DNA of 51,875 nucleotides from a virus, in the IMG/VR virus record IMGVR_UViG_3300020109_000029, positions 1-51,875 of that record; one strand, given 5' to 3'. The notes beneath the pieces are model-generated. The model made no database searches. It saw only the letters and a program-made list of their open reading frames with translations, and was not told the DNA's origin. This document shows, piece after piece, positions 2,701 through 8,530 of this stretch. The stretch's first letter is position 1; every line of letters starts with the position of its first letter. Made by a program: the position numbers and the translations under genes.

Positions 2701-3347
2701 GCTTCACCCCTGAACAGAAGGCGGCGCTCCAGGCACCTTTGAGCCAGGCGCACGTCGCCTCCCGTCAACAGGCGGGCCAGACCCTGTCCTACGTCGAGGC
2801 GTGGCACGTCATTGCCGAGGCCAACCGCATCTTCGGCTTCGACGGCTGGGCGCGCGAGACGATCGACCTGCGCCAGCTTGGCGAGCCGAGGGAGAAAGAC
2901 GGCAAGTTCCGCGTCGGCTATTCGGCCCGTGTCCGCGTGACTGTGACGGCCGGCGACCGTGTTGTGGTGCGCGAGGGGTGTGGCTTCGGCCAGGGCATCG
3001 ACCGCGATCCCGACCAGGCCCACGAAAGCGCACTCAAGGAAGCCGAGAGCGACGCCATGAAGCGCGCGCTGATGACCTTCGGCAATCCCTTCGGCCTGGC
3101 GCTCTACGACAAGAGCAAGGCGAACGTGGCCGAGGTCGGCAATGCCGCCGTGGACTTCGCCATCGGTCAGCTCCGCTGCTGCAAGACCGGCGACGAGTTC
3201 AAGGACTTCTGGGCCAAGAACAAGGATGGCCTGAAAGAGCAACTGACCCCGCGCGAATACGCGACGGTCGTCACGGCCATGCAGGAGGAGGCCAAGCGCT
3301 TCGCTCCGCCGGCCGAAGAACCCACCCCATTCGACAAGGCCGCCTGA
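2697..3347 (+). CDS. Rad52/Rad22-like single-strand annealing protein
   Basis: A 216-residue protein starting at GTG 2697 (GTGA overlap). Residues 18-130 carry the Rad52-fold signature: LSYVEAWHVIAEANRIFGFD, GWARETIDL, a beta hairpin with RVRVTVTAGDRVVVREG, GCGFGQG, then the helix AHESALKEAESDAMKRALMT and FGNPFGLALYD. Proteins of this fold form oligomeric rings on single-stranded DNA and promote annealing, the role RecT or Red-beta plays in other phages. SSB, a coiled-coil protein and NinB follow immediately, so this is the phage recombination module. The C-terminal 70 residues are variable and probably bind partners. Confidence 0.9.
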   Translation: MSFTPEQKAALQAPLSQAHVASRQQAGQTLSYVEAWHVIAEANRIFGFDGWARETIDLRQLGEPREKDGKFRVGYSARVRVTVTAGDRVVVREGCGFGQGIDRDPDQAHESALKEAESDAMKRALMTFGNPFGLALYDKSKANVAEVGNAAVDFAIGQLRCCKTGDEFKDFWAKNKDGLKEQLTPREYATVVTAMQEEAKRFAPPAEEPTPFDKAA

Positions 3348-3348
3348 C

Positions 3349-3768
3349 ATGAAGAATCTGACCATTGCCGGTCGTCTGACCAAAGACGCCACCACCCGCG
3401 ACGCCGGTTCGGATCGCGTCACCGGGTTTTCCGTCGCCGTCGACGACCGCCAGGGCAAGGACAAGTCCACCCTGTTTTTCGACTGCTCGATGTGGGGAAA
3501 GCGCGGCGAGGCGCTGGCTCAATACCTCATCAAGGGTGCGTCGGTGACCGTCTCCGGCGACCTCGGCACGCGGGAGTACGAGGGCAAGACCTACCTGACC
3601 CTCCGCGTGAATGACGTGACGCTCCAGGGCGGGAAACCCACACGGGACGAACACGATCAGCGGCCGGCGGGTGAACGGGGAGGGTCGTCCAGCGGTCAGC
3701 CCGCCGGCGGCTACGACCTGTCGGACGATATCCCGTTCGTGAGGGTGGCGGGAGATTTCGATGTCTGA
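3349..3768 (+). CDS. ssb: Single-stranded DNA-binding protein
   Basis: A 139-residue protein with an N-terminal OB fold (residues 1-103: MKNLTIAGRLTKDA, VTGFSVAVDDR, DCSMWGKRGEALAQYLIKGA, VTVSGDLGTREYEGKTYLTL). A Gly/Ser-rich linker and an acidic end containing DLSDDIPF follow; the DDIPF motif is the partner-binding tip of bacterial SSB, though here nine residues lie after it. It would coat replication and recombination intermediates and recruit host proteins. It starts one base after the annealing-protein stop. Confidence 0.93.
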   Translation: MKNLTIAGRLTKDATTRDAGSDRVTGFSVAVDDRQGKDKSTLFFDCSMWGKRGEALAQYLIKGASVTVSGDLGTREYEGKTYLTLRVNDVTLQGGKPTRDEHDQRPAGERGGSSSGQPAGGYDLSDDIPFVRVAGDFDV

Positions 3769-5330: not shown

Positions 5331-5746
5331 TGCAGCGCAAGGCCCTGACCAGAACCGAGATCATCCTGCTCTGCCAGCGTCAGGCGACCGGCCCGATCCT
5401 GTGCGGCTGCGGCTGCGGTGAACCGCTGGATCCGGTGTCAGAGCAGGTGATCGACGAGCATGTCCTGCCCCGCAAGCTGACCGAGGTTGGCTGCGAGGCC
5501 GAGCGCGACGTGCTGGAGAACCGCGCCTTTCTCCGCAAGCCCTGCGCCCTGGAGAAGACCCGCGCCGATCTGGCCGTGATCGCCAAGGCGAAGGCCCAGG
5601 GCGGAGAGACAGGACAATACGCCCGCCGCCAGAAGCGAGGGGAGGGGTCGATCAAGTCCCGCCCGAACTGGCTTCCGAAGGGCTCAACCAAATGGCCGAA
5701 GCGCAAGCTTGGCTCTCAGAAGAAGGGAACCGACCATGTCGGGTGA
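5330..5746 (+). CDS. HNH-like nuclease with zinc-binding cysteines
   Basis: A 138-residue protein. Residues 22-35 carry clustered cysteines (PILCGCGCGEPLDP) and IDEHVLPRKLTEVG follows, which fits the strand and His of an HNH core. ENRAFLRKPCALEKTRADLA holds the last Cys and helix. The C-terminal third is very basic (KRGEGSIKSRPNWLPKGSTK), suggesting DNA contact. In other phages a small HNH or NinG-like nuclease often sits next to NinB, so a Holliday-junction or homing role are both possible. Confidence 0.7.
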   Translation: MQRKALTRTEIILLCQRQATGPILCGCGCGEPLDPVSEQVIDEHVLPRKLTEVGCEAERDVLENRAFLRKPCALEKTRADLAVIAKAKAQGGETGQYARRQKRGEGSIKSRPNWLPKGSTKWPKRKLGSQKKGTDHVG

Positions 5747-5754
5747 GAAGTCCC

Positions 5755-6195
5755 ATGACTAGCCCCCATTCCGGCCAGACGGCCTCCATAGGCGACCACC
5801 AACTTTCTTTCACCAACAGAAGAGGAGCGGAAAGCCACGACCCGCGCGCGAAAGCGTCTGGGTGTGATCAGGGAGGGGGCGTCGTCACGCTTGGCGGCTC
5901 CCCCGCTGTTCAGACCGGCGTGGGCTTCCTTCTGAGGTCCGCCCATTCTGCACGCGGGACCGGCGCGATCCACGGCCACACCTACGAAGTCGTTTGCTGG
6001 TTTCCGGCGGGAGACGACGCTGAAGAGTTGCAGGCGAAGTGCGAACGGTCTTGCGCGGACCTAGACCACGCAATCCTTCCGGAAGAACTGGCCTGGGCTG
6101 AAGCCCTGGTCGCCGAAATCATGCGCCGCACCGGAGCAGAAGACGTCGAGATCAGACGGCCCCTTGAGCGTCTTTACGCGAGGCCGCGCCGATGA
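5755..6195 (+). CDS. QueD-like T-fold protein (6-carboxy-tetrahydropterin synthase family)
   Basis: A 146-residue protein. With start ATG 5755, residues 62-146 match the QueD/PTPS T-fold: SAH (His 64) and HGHTYEV (His 73 and 75) supply the three zinc ligands, LDHAIL (104-109) is the conserved Asp-His, and RRPLERLYA carries the substrate Glu. The catalytic Cys normally found just before HGH is absent (TGAIHGH), so it may not make 6-carboxytetrahydropterin. Residues 1-57 are low-complexity, and GTG 5920 would give a 91-residue protein starting at the fold itself. It overlaps the DpdA-like gene by four bases, pointing to a shared 7-deazaguanine role. Confidence 0.7.
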   Translation: MTSPHSGQTASIGDHQLSFTNRRGAESHDPRAKASGCDQGGGVVTLGGSPAVQTGVGFLLRSAHSARGTGAIHGHTYEVVCWFPAGDDAEELQAKCERSCADLDHAILPEELAWAEALVAEIMRRTGAEDVEIRRPLERLYARPRR

Positions 6196-6966
6196 CCGAC
6201 CTCCTGTTCTATCCCGGCACCCACCAGGTCGGCGACGCCAAGCACTTCGACCGCGTCTGCATCAGCCGTAATCGCCTCGTCGGGCGCAAGAAGCCGGTCG
6301 AGTGCGACGATGTCCTGCTCGACTGCGCCGGGTTCACGACCATCGAGAAGCACGGTGGCTATCCGCACCCCCCGGAAGAGTGGGCGCGCGAGGTGCATCG
6401 CCTGAACTCGAACGGCATCCTCAAAATCACCGTCGTCGTGGCACAGGACTACATGTGCGAGCCCTGGATGCTCGCCAAGACCGGCCTGACGATCGAAGAC
6501 CATCAGCGCCTCACAATCGGCCGCTTCGACGCAGTCATTGCCGAACTGCACCGTCTCTACGATGGGCCGCCGCCCTTCGAGGTCATGCCGGTTCTGCAAG
6601 GCTTTGCGATCAGCGATTACCTTCGCCATATCGAAATGTATGGTGACCGCCTCACCCCCGGCATGTGGGTTGGCGTCGGCTCTGTCTGCAAGCGCCAGGG
6701 CGACCCGGCGATCATCGAGGACTTGCTTCTAGCCATTGCAGGAGTGCGGCCGGACCTCCGGCTGCACGGCTTTCGGTGTGAAGCTGACGGCACTCCGCAG
6801 TCCCATCGTTCGCCGGCTGCTCTACAGCGCGGACAGCATGGCCTGGTCCTTTGCAGCTCGGAAGCAGGGCCGCGACGGCAACGACTGGCGCGAAGCCAAG
6901 GCGTTCGAGGCGCGCGCTCTCGTCCCCAGTCGCGAGCCCGAGCAACTGCGATTGTTCTCGGCATGA
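6192..6966 (+). CDS. dpdA: DpdA-like DNA 7-deazaguanine transglycosylase, read through a +1 frameshift
   Basis: The first 194 codons encode a TGT-like barrel related to DpdA (MTDLLFYPGTHQ, LLDCAGFTTIEKHGGYPHPP, PVLQGFAISDYLRHIEMYG, WVGVGSVCKRQGDP, LRLHGF). DpdA enzymes exchange guanine in DNA for a 7-deazaguanine such as preQ0, protecting phage DNA from restriction. After GGC TTT at 6768-6773 the family sequence continues only in the +1 frame (GVKLTALRSPIVRRLLYSAD, ending EQLRLFSA at 6966), giving 257 residues. Unshifted translation runs to 7016 with an Arg/Ser-rich end. Either a one-base insertion or programmed +1 shifting on TTT CGG is involved. Confidence 0.75.
6771..6777 (+). promoter_or_regulatory. 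Candidate +1 ribosomal frameshift site in the DpdA-like gene
   Basis: The zero-frame codons are TTT CGG, and slipping one base forward gives TTC with GGT next, restoring the conserved HGFGVKLTAL reading. tRNA-Phe (anticodon GAA) pairs better with TTC than TTT, which favours the shift. The arrangement resembles the UUU CGU site of the influenza PA-X +1 shift. No stop codon sits in the A site. A simple sequencing or mutational insertion of one C is the alternative. Confidence 0.45.
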
Positions 6967-7012
6967 TCTCCACCAACAAACAGGTGGCCCCGCAAAGCGG
7001 CGGAGAGGGGCG

Positions 7013-8530
7013 ATGAAACCCAAGCTCCTCGACCTTTTCTCAGGCATCGGCGGCTTCAGCCTGGGCCTTGAGCGCGCAGGCTTCGAAACCGTGGCGTTTT
7101 GCGAGATCGCACCGTCGCCTCGTCACCTTCTGGCGACTCACTGGCCGAACGTCCCCTGCTTTGAAGACATCACGACGCTGACCGCTGAAATGGTTGGGCC
7201 TGTCGACGCAATCTGCGGCGGCTTCCCCTGTCAAGACATTAGCTTCGCCGGGAAGGGGGCGGGTTTGGCCGGCGAGCGCTCCGGCCTCTGGAGAGAATAT
7301 GCACGATTGGTTCGCGAGCTACGACCCCGCTACGTCATCGTGGAAAACGTCGCAGCGCTCCTTGGTCGAGGACTTGGAGACGTTCTCGGAGACCTGGCCT
7401 CGCTCGGGTACGATGCGTGGTGGGATTGCATACCAGCTTCCGCCGTTGGCGCCCCTCACCGCCGCGACCGGCTCTGGATTGTTGCCTACCCCGGAGGCGA
7501 GCAACACGAAGGCTACGGCGATGCGCTCCGGAGGGAGATCGCCGCGGGACTTTCTCGCGCCGCTGCCCTCGTGGCCCACACCGACGGCAATGGACGGCCG
7601 GCGCGGGAACAAGCCCCCGAGACCGTGGGATGCGGGAGTCTATTTGCCGCAAGCGGTAGCGATGTGGCCCACGCCGCGAGCGACAGACGGCTCAAAGGGC
7701 GGTCCAAACCAGAGAGGCAGCAAGGGCGACCTTGCCCTGCCGGCGGCGGTGCATCGCTGGCCTACTCCGACGTCCAGCATGGCGAAGGGGTCGTCTCCGG
7801 CGTCACTGACGAGGAAGGACGGACAGGACCGTTCGAACGATCGGTTGGACCACGCCATGCAGGCCCGCGAGGGCAGTGGTCAGCTGAACCCGACGTGGGT
7901 CGAACTCTTGATGGGTTTTCCCGCTGGCTGGACGAAACCTATGGAGACCCGGAAGCCCATAAGGTAATATTGGCTTATGCCAATGCCTCGGAGGCCGGAC
8001 CCCGAAAAGCACTGCGAGACCTGCGGGACCGCATTCGTGCGGAAGATGACCGGCGGGCGGCTGGAGGACCGGTCAGTGTTTCTCCGTCGGAGGTTCTGTT
8101 CGCTTTCGTGCGCGAACACGCGCGGCGAGCTGAAGAAGGGCTCACATCACTGGAGGGCGCGGCGCCACCGTCTGACGGCGTGCGAAGCCTGCGGGGAACG
8201 AAGGGCGCTGCACGTCCACCACTGCGACCAGGACGAGACGAACAACGAGCCGGCGAACCTTCAGACCCTCTGCAAGTGGTGTCACAACTTCTGGCACGCC
8301 ACGCAGAAGCGGCTTGGATTGCCTATCGCTGGCCGGATGCCCGCGCTTCGCAGCCTTGGGTCCACGGATGGGAAGACGGGGTCGGCCGCGTAGCGACCGC
8401 AGTGCCGGCCCGCGTCGACAAGCTCCACGGGCTGGGAAATGCCGTGGTTCCACTCATCCCGGAAATCCTAGGCAGAGCCATCCTAGCCGCACAGGAATCC
8501 ATCACCACCCCCCAATCGAGAGCAGCCTGA
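7013..8530 (+). CDS. C5-cytosine DNA methyltransferase with an internal HNH insertion
   Basis: A 505-residue protein; ATG 7013 follows GGAGAGGGG at 7002-7010. Visible motifs: I (DLFSGIGGFSLGL, 7-19), IV with catalytic Cys (GFPCQD, 70-75), VI (ENV, 111-113), VIII (RRDRLW, 150-155), and at the far end IX/X (VPARVDKLHGLGNAVVP, ending at about 480). A segment WSAEPDVGRTLDGF near 290 and another HGWEDGVGRVATAVP near 455 belong together in related enzymes but are separated here by about 140 residues, where an HNH gene lies in the +1 frame. The methyl frame stays open throughout. It would modify phage DNA against restriction. Confidence 0.85.
   Translation: MKPKLLDLFSGIGGFSLGLERAGFETVAFCEIAPSPRHLLATHWPNVPCFEDITTLTAEMVGPVDAICGGFPCQDISFAGKGAGLAGERSGLWREYARLVRELRPRYVIVENVAALLGRGLGDVLGDLASLGYDAWWDCIPASAVGAPHRRDRLWIVAYPGGEQHEGYGDALRREIAAGLSRAAALVAHTDGNGRPAREQAPETVGCGSLFAASGSDVAHAASDRRLKGRSKPERQQGRPCPAGGGASLAYSDVQHGEGVVSGVTDEEGRTGPFERSVGPRHAGPRGQWSAEPDVGRTLDGFSRWLDETYGDPEAHKVILAYANASEAGPRKALRDLRDRIRAEDDRRAAGGPVSVSPSEVLFAFVREHARRAEEGLTSLEGAAPPSDGVRSLRGTKGAARPPLRPGRDEQRAGEPSDPLQVVSQLLARHAEAAWIAYRWPDARASQPWVHGWEDGVGRVATAVPARVDKLHGLGNAVVPLIPEILGRAILAAQESITTPQSRAA
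7194..7967 (+). CDS. Overlapping +1-frame protein nested in the methyltransferase gene
   Basis: A 257-codon frame lies wholly inside the methyltransferase gene. It contains SYDPATSSWKTSQRSLVEDL, ETWPRSGTMRGGIAYQLPPL, repeated LPTPEAS/WPTPTAMDG/WPTPRATDG/WPTPTSS units and LNPTWVELLMGFPAGWT. From memory, proteins with this motif set are widespread in phage annotations next to or over cytosine methyltransferases, without known function. ATG 7194 is the first start; ATG 7299 with GGAGAG at 7290-7295 is an attractive alternative giving MHDWFASYD. Because the DNA is GC-rich, long chance frames are common, so the motifs, not the length, are the evidence. Confidence 0.5.
   Translation: MGLSTQSAAASPVKTLASPGRGRVWPASAPASGENMHDWFASYDPATSSWKTSQRSLVEDLETFSETWPRSGTMRGGIAYQLPPLAPLTAATGSGLLPTPEASNTKATAMRSGGRSPRDFLAPLPSWPTPTAMDGRRGNKPPRPWDAGVYLPQAVAMWPTPRATDGSKGGPNQRGSKGDLALPAAVHRWPTPTSSMAKGSSPASLTRKDGQDRSNDRLDHAMQAREGSGQLNPTWVELLMGFPAGWTKPMETRKPIR
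7977..8393 (+). CDS. HNH endonuclease embedded in the methyltransferase gene
   Basis: A 138-residue protein with two zinc sites and a clear HNH core: CETCGTAFVRK and CSLSCAN (residues 13-45), then CEACGERRALHVHHCDQDET, NNEPANLQTLCKWCHNFWH (69-107). The catalytic HH, Asn and final His are all present. It is in the +1 frame of the methyltransferase, nine bases after the stop of the overlapping frame at 7967, and ends inside the region encoding methyltransferase motif IX. It looks like a homing nuclease that landed in the variable region without closing the host frame. Confidence 0.8.
   Translation: MPMPRRPDPEKHCETCGTAFVRKMTGGRLEDRSVFLRRRFCSLSCANTRGELKKGSHHWRARRHRLTACEACGERRALHVHHCDQDETNNEPANLQTLCKWCHNFWHATQKRLGLPIAGRMPALRSLGSTDGKTGSAA

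Follow-up and report, generated by a model that had tools for sequence, protein, structure and literature searches.

A probable +1 frameshift at a UUU_C site in the catalytic core of a phage DpdA-like enzyme

We analysed a 51,875-nucleotide stretch of viral DNA (IMG/VR record IMGVR_UViG_3300020109_000029, referred to below as the window) and found that the coding sequence of its dpdA-like gene changes frame by +1. The gene quite probably encodes a DpdA-type DNA-guanine transglycosylase, an enzyme of base exchange in DNA, the active form of which would require a +1 frameshift at a UUU_C tetranucleotide. The coordinates of the gene, its parts and its neighbours are collected in Table 1.

Results

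The reading frame changes inside the dpdA-like gene

Frame 0 of the gene forms an ORF of 274 aa (6192-7016), and from a defined point the protein homology carries on in the +1 frame. Direct reading of the junction gives CTG CAC GGC TTT CGG TGT GAA, with TTT at 6771-6773 and CGG at 6774-6776; an in-frame TTTC is present in the gene at this junction only. Taking TTTC in one step leads to a product of 257 aa that ends at the TGA at 6964-6966. Both lengths agree with those given in the initial annotation. Its statement that the conserved C-terminal region is readable in the +1 frame only was confirmed by profile searches. Against the Pfam DpdA family (PF23859, curated cut-off 27) the frame-0 product scores 100 bits over residues 24-198 and the shifted product 132 bits over residues 24-225. 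PHROG 1279 is matched by each frame separately, at profile positions 4-197 and 194-227.

Since the +1 frame of the window is open from 6733 only, the shift has to lie between 6733 and Gly195. Within this interval the switch point proposed earlier, TTT CGG with a slip of tRNA-Phe to TTC, offers the sole good re-pairing: UUU is able to re-pair as UUC with tRNA-Phe GAA in the +1 frame. This makes UUU_C the obvious site, because tRNA-Phe pairs better with UUC than with UUU, an argument already made for influenza PA-X (PMC3498833).

It had also been noted that the two frames stay open past the site, which is correct. The stop codon of frame 0 (TGA, 7014-7016) overlaps the ATG of the next gene at 7013 (ATGA, 7013-7016), and frame 0 reaches the start of the next gene in both of the shift-bearing phages described below. 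We rejected this openness as a sign of selection, as 27 of 121 intact relatives (22%) are also open past their true stop in the frame equivalent to frame 0. The run into the next start could couple translation of the two genes; we did not count it as evidence, because that share of the intact relatives is open so far by chance.

Table 1. Features of the dpdA-like gene of the window and of its surroundings
Feature	Position	Strand	Remarks
QueD-like ORF, stop overlaps the dpdA start (ATGA)	5692..6195	+	Weak: TIGR03367 E 0.074, PTPS E 0.041-0.13
dpdA-like gene, whole	6192-6966	+	DpdA/TGT-like; ATG start at 6192
dpdA-like gene, frame-0 part, residues 1-194, ends at conserved ...DLRLHGF	6192..6773	+	PF23859 100 bits; PHROG 1279 184 bits; dN/dS 0.13 vs L001
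Candidate stimulatory RNA hairpin GUGCGGCCGG-ACCU-CCGGCUGCAC	6744..6767	+	Ends 3 nt (E-site codon GGC) before UUU
Putative +1 slip site UUU_C, tRNA-Phe UUU -> UUC; frame-0 A-site CGG 6774-6776	6771..6774	+	Direct reading; identical junction in L001/L002; TTY GGN in intact relatives
Frame-0 continuation, 80 unconserved residues, stop TGA 7014-7016	6774..7016	+	Without conservation in L001
+1-frame part, residues 195-257 and stop TGA 6964-6966; contains GVKLT and ADSMAW with D214	6775..6966	+	88% identity to L001; dN/dS 0.06-0.07
C5-cytosine DNA methyltransferase, downstream gene	7013..8530	+	PF00145 1e-39; PHROG 363 6e-80

The junction separates two conserved aspartates

Of the two candidate catalytic Asp residues, one is found on each side of the junction. 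D44 (LLDCAGF/DSGAF motif), located before it, is kept in all of the 124 relatives, and D214 (ADSMAW motif), located after it, in 123 of them. From what is known of TGTs, we take these two residues to be the general base and the nucleophile. An intact relative (L128) was modelled in place of the shifted window protein, with a mean pLDDT of 94. This model has a TGT-like fold and, along practically its entire length, matches the solved preQ0 insertase DpdA 7ui4 (Z 18.4) as well as TGTs (Z ~17). The unshifted product of the window lacks the last strand-helix elements together with D214, and is presumably inactive.

In family, fold, conserved Asp and neighbouring queD-like gene, the window gene is like phage and bacterial DpdA (PF23859; PMC6884629; PDB 7ui4) and TGT. 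It is unlike them in its reading frame: apart from the shift carriers and the phages Mwe-JY25 and Mwe-JY07, the DpdA family members read here have one continuous frame across the site.

The gene is situated in the left arm of the window, among plus-strand early genes for a Rad52-like recombinase, an SSB, an exonuclease-like protein, NinB, the QueD-like ORF, the dpdA-like gene itself and the C5-cytosine methyltransferase, with an integrase further on. The profile matches of the QueD-like ORF are weak; its positional counterpart in the related contig L002 matches PTPS at 1.6e-8. This ORF is probably a gene for a 7-deazaguanine precursor, co-transcribed with dpdA. A QueD-like gene overlaps dpdA or sits just 5′ of it in the window (5692-6195), in L002 (2555-2986) and in an intact relative, L041 (2046-2393). 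Among the neighbours examined in these three, no other preQ0 synthesis genes were seen, so the host may supply the remaining steps. No phage-encoded tRNA was found in the window phage.

A second phage carries the same junction

We aligned 124 distinct relatives of the gene. Nearly all of them are continuous and read HGF-G[VIL]K, where GGN comes right after TTC or TTT. Over the shift-bearing half, the closest relative is found on two IMG/VR metagenome contigs, L001 and L002, which are identical over this stretch. Their junction reads CAT GGC TTT CGG CGT GAA and has the same one-base offset as that of the window. The check for a TTT C arrangement in related phages, suggested in the initial annotation, therefore returned an identical TTT CGG junction. 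Across several genes, L002 shows synteny with the window at 69-82% DNA identity; the two phages are related but clearly different.

An exact-motif scan of the collection returned the L001 and L002 contigs and no others. Further carriers of the site were found neither in viral contigs and genome contigs nor in 385 alphaproteobacterial genomes, plasmids and 399 phage records, which leaves two distinct sequences with the site and no third. In the genome contigs, all 15 relatives are continuous. A pattern search of bacterial genomes gave 3 matches, which we attribute to chance, as a reversed control also gave 3 and the genomes concerned have no dpdA match. We found no report of a frameshift in dpdA in the open-access literature (subscription papers were outside the scope).

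Relatives with one continuous frame had been named as grounds for refuting a programmed shift. Such a frame is present in about 120 distinct relatives, but is absent from the relative nearest to the window in the shift-bearing half. That most relatives are continuous places the shift in a single lineage and says no more than that.

Purifying selection acts on either side of the junction

Silent sites of the window and L001 have diverged strongly, with dS of about 1.5-1.9. In the N part of the gene the two sequences differ at 45, 38 and 105 sites by codon position (dN 0.25, dS 1.88, dN/dS 0.13). In the C part, translated in the +1 frame, the corresponding numbers are 10, 8 and 31 (dN 0.11-0.13, dS ~1.8, dN/dS 0.06-0.07). 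When frame 0 is used for this C stretch instead, the ratio exceeds 2. Thus, by these codon comparisons, purifying selection is acting on both sides of the junction, and downstream of it in the +1 frame only. The 63 residues of the C part in this frame are 87-88% identical to those of L001/L002. Compared with 2712 pairs of relatives of similar N-part divergence, the C-part identity of the window and L001 (0.89, against a mean of 0.66) is at the top of the range. An excess of codon conservation upstream of the site was not significant gene-wide.

The history of the gene differs between its two halves. A full-length tree grouped L001 with the intact L041. When the alignment was split, residues 4-125 of L001 again grouped with L041 (support 99), and residues 126-257, which include the junction, grouped with the window (support 90). 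In 20-residue windows, L001 is 70-95% identical to L041 over residues 4-125 and 80-100% identical to the window over residues 126-257. The grouping of the 3′ half with the window is unstarred, and constraining L001 with L041 there was not rejected (p-AU 0.21). The full-length and split trees speak against the window and L001 being plain sisters over the whole gene. In L001/L002 the dpdA gene (2983-3766) is a mosaic of an L041-like 5′ half and a window-like 3′ half with the shift site. Most likely, the shift-bearing 3′ half traces to one ancestor and, in one of the lineages, acquired a different 5′ half. It would then, again most likely, have diverged to a dS of ~1.5-1.8 with its function kept.

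The slip site and its possible stimulators

Several features of the site are known from other systems. In bacteria, UUU_Ynn is especially prone to +1 shifts even without a stop codon (PMC5009743), and UUU_CGN is the proposed +1 site of plant amalgaviruses (PMC5052127). The likeness to the UUU CGU of PA-X, pointed out previously, holds in so far as PA-X and the amalgaviruses use UUU_CGN. The CGG codon is not independent evidence, being forced by the C together with the conserved Gly codon GGN. For that reason, and since CGG is not rare in the phage, the A-site codon adds little. With a usage figure of 19.6 per 1000, CGG is common in the window phage, which means that decoding at the A site is not necessarily slow.

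We saw no suitably positioned SD-like sequence near the site, the best match to the anti-SD being ~30 nt upstream, and no downstream RNA structure common to both phages stood out in the folds. Immediately upstream there is a stem of 9-10 bp, which is a suggestive candidate for a stimulator. In the window, the 30-nt MFE of this hairpin is -20.9 kcal/mol, the lowest of 121 (synonymous-codon null, p=0.0024); for the upstream hairpin of L001 it is -14.0 kcal/mol (p=0.016). The stem is paired at 10 of 10 positions in the window and 9 of 10 in L001, and both are among the top four of 120. The intact relatives L036 and L152 form the same hairpin, L152 with 9 of 10 pairs, so we regard it as suggestive and not as proof. 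In a 70S system, a stable hairpin in this upstream position stimulated +1 shifting ~60% as much as an internal SD did (PMC6321510).

These observations suggest the following course of events. Ribosomes would translate 194 codons in frame 0, tRNA-Phe would slip from UUU to UUC at UUU_C, and decoding would restart at GGU (Gly195). This would yield the enzyme of 257 residues, complete with its conserved C-terminal strand-helix elements and with D214, the likely nucleophile. Unshifted ribosomes would make the 274-residue product that lacks D214 and would terminate where the next gene starts. The GC-rich hairpin could re-form immediately behind the ribosome, next to the E-site codon, and probably promotes the forward slip in a way comparable to the internal Shine-Dalgarno duplex in prfB. 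If the shift is regulated, it may serve to set the dosage of the enzyme.

Other explanations of the junction

The same +1 slip might also be tolerated without serving any purpose. A one-base insertion would then have occurred at a naturally slippery UUU_C, with enough slippage for the gene to survive, no regulatory role and no evolved stimulator. The site has no conserved SD, pseudoknot or adjacent stop, its CGG is forced, the hairpin stem is present in intact relatives, and ~120 relatives manage without a shift, all of which is in keeping with tolerance. Nevertheless, the arrangement outlasted a dS of ~1.5-1.8 and a recombination event even though a frame-restoring change would be easy, and in both shifted genes the upstream hairpin is among the first few of ~120. 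We therefore consider mere tolerance unlikely, while noting that a regulated and a merely tolerated shift, as well as the efficiency of the shift, are not separable from sequence.

It is much less plausible that the gene gives two separate polypeptides, an N and a C part, which then assemble, the C part being made from its own start codon. Potential starts in the +1 frame do exist, namely a TTG at 6736 in the window and an ATG at 3566 in L001. They are not homologous and have no SD at proper spacing, the ATG of L001 being ACG in the window, and the break would fall inside the conserved HGFG.K segment. A separate start for the C part was rejected, as no start is conserved.

A broken gene or an assembly error, in which one extra base means that no enzyme is made, would fit the continuous frame of most relatives and is strongly disfavoured. 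Separately assembled contigs of a different phage show the same junction, the site contains no long homopolymer, and dN/dS in the +1 frame is 0.06-0.07. An error or a dead gene is thus unlikely, given a junction shared with a diverged relative and purifying selection on either side of it. Between the two options of the initial annotation, a programmed shift or a broken gene, the identical site in the second phage and this selection favour a +1 shift that is used; calling it programmed, in the sense of regulated, goes beyond the sequence evidence. We give hardly any credence to transcriptional slippage restoring the frame in some mRNAs, for which nothing speaks beyond the need for a one-base correction. 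The site contains just three Ts and lacks an A/T run such as those known to make RNA polymerase slip (PMC3711429).

Discussion

The +1 frameshift at UUU_C that we favour shares features with several known systems. As in influenza PA-X and the plant amalgaviruses (PMC3498833, PMC5052127), P-site tRNA-Phe would slip from UUU to UUC with CGN in the A site and no stop codon. Those sites belong to eukaryotic RNA viruses, work at about 1-2% efficiency and have no upstream hairpin described, whereas the window site lies in an enzyme gene of a dsDNA phage, where the shift appears to be needed for the active site. In prfB (RF2) the shift is likewise required for an active protein, and a duplex just 5′ of the slip codon is the proposed stimulator. 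The layout of the prfB-type site (SD, 3 nt, CUU and a stop) is different from that of the window, where CGG occupies the A site and the best anti-SD match is far upstream.

The bacterial UUU_Ynn shift of Y. pestis YopN-TyeA (PMC5009743) involves the same class of tetranucleotide without an adjacent stop. It fuses two gene products, whereas the shift in the window cuts one enzyme domain inside its catalytic core. Programmed +1 frameshifting in tailed phages is also represented by the Listeria phages PSA, A118 and A500 and by SPP1 (PMC5009743, PMC3498833). The Listeria phages slip at CCC (proline) codons, and the products in these phages and SPP1 are structural proteins with optional C-terminal extensions.

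The phage +1 frameshifts known to us all yield such optional extensions of structural proteins. What is new here is the place of the probable +1 recoding site, itself of a kind known in bacteria and phages: the catalytic core of a phage DNA-modification enzyme. As this enzyme appears to need the shift for its active site, ribosome slippage would gate DNA hypermodification and restriction evasion. A bacterial virus would also be using the UUU_CGN site of eukaryotic RNA viruses, with the Shine-Dalgarno duplex replaced by an upstream hairpin. A shift-dependent dpdA would offer a compact system to test what makes +1 slippage efficient. Automatic annotation would overlook such a DpdA or label the enzyme as truncated.

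Observations on other dpdA-like genes

A different +1 disruption of dpdA was observed in the Microcystis phages Mwe-JY25 (PP438417.1, 2492-3262) and Mwe-JY07 (PP395639.1), ~45 nt after HGFG. It falls between ...LQNLAVRRRL and YSADSMAW, just before the catalytic motif, and the two records are identical there. The sequence GTTCGGAGGCGTCTTCTAC (CGGAGG-CGT-CTT-C) has an RF2-like layout of GGAGG, a 3-nt spacer and CUU_C, and the strongest anti-SD match of the gene sits 3 nt before CUU. Among the relatives searched, no diverged one shares this disruption, which may therefore have arisen recently or be an error. The gene has a high GC content, and its nearest relatives are in alphaproteobacterial phages and prophages; for this reason the stated Microcystis host may not be the true one.

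One may speculate that phage dpdA genes acquired +1 sites at least twice between HGFG.K and the catalytic Asp (UUU_CGG with a hairpin, and GGAGG-CGU-CUU_C). These would control the dosage or timing of DNA hypermodification and deliver unshifted ribosomes to the next start codon. We regard this generalization as doubtful.

Two further dpdA-like genes deserve mention. In one relative (L254, 1501-2130) the frame stops just after SADS in the catalytic motif, and the gene is possibly truncated or broken. In the Rhizobium phage RHph_TM3_3_3 (MN988468.1), an annotated attL (2665-2679) lies inside the dpdA-like gene.
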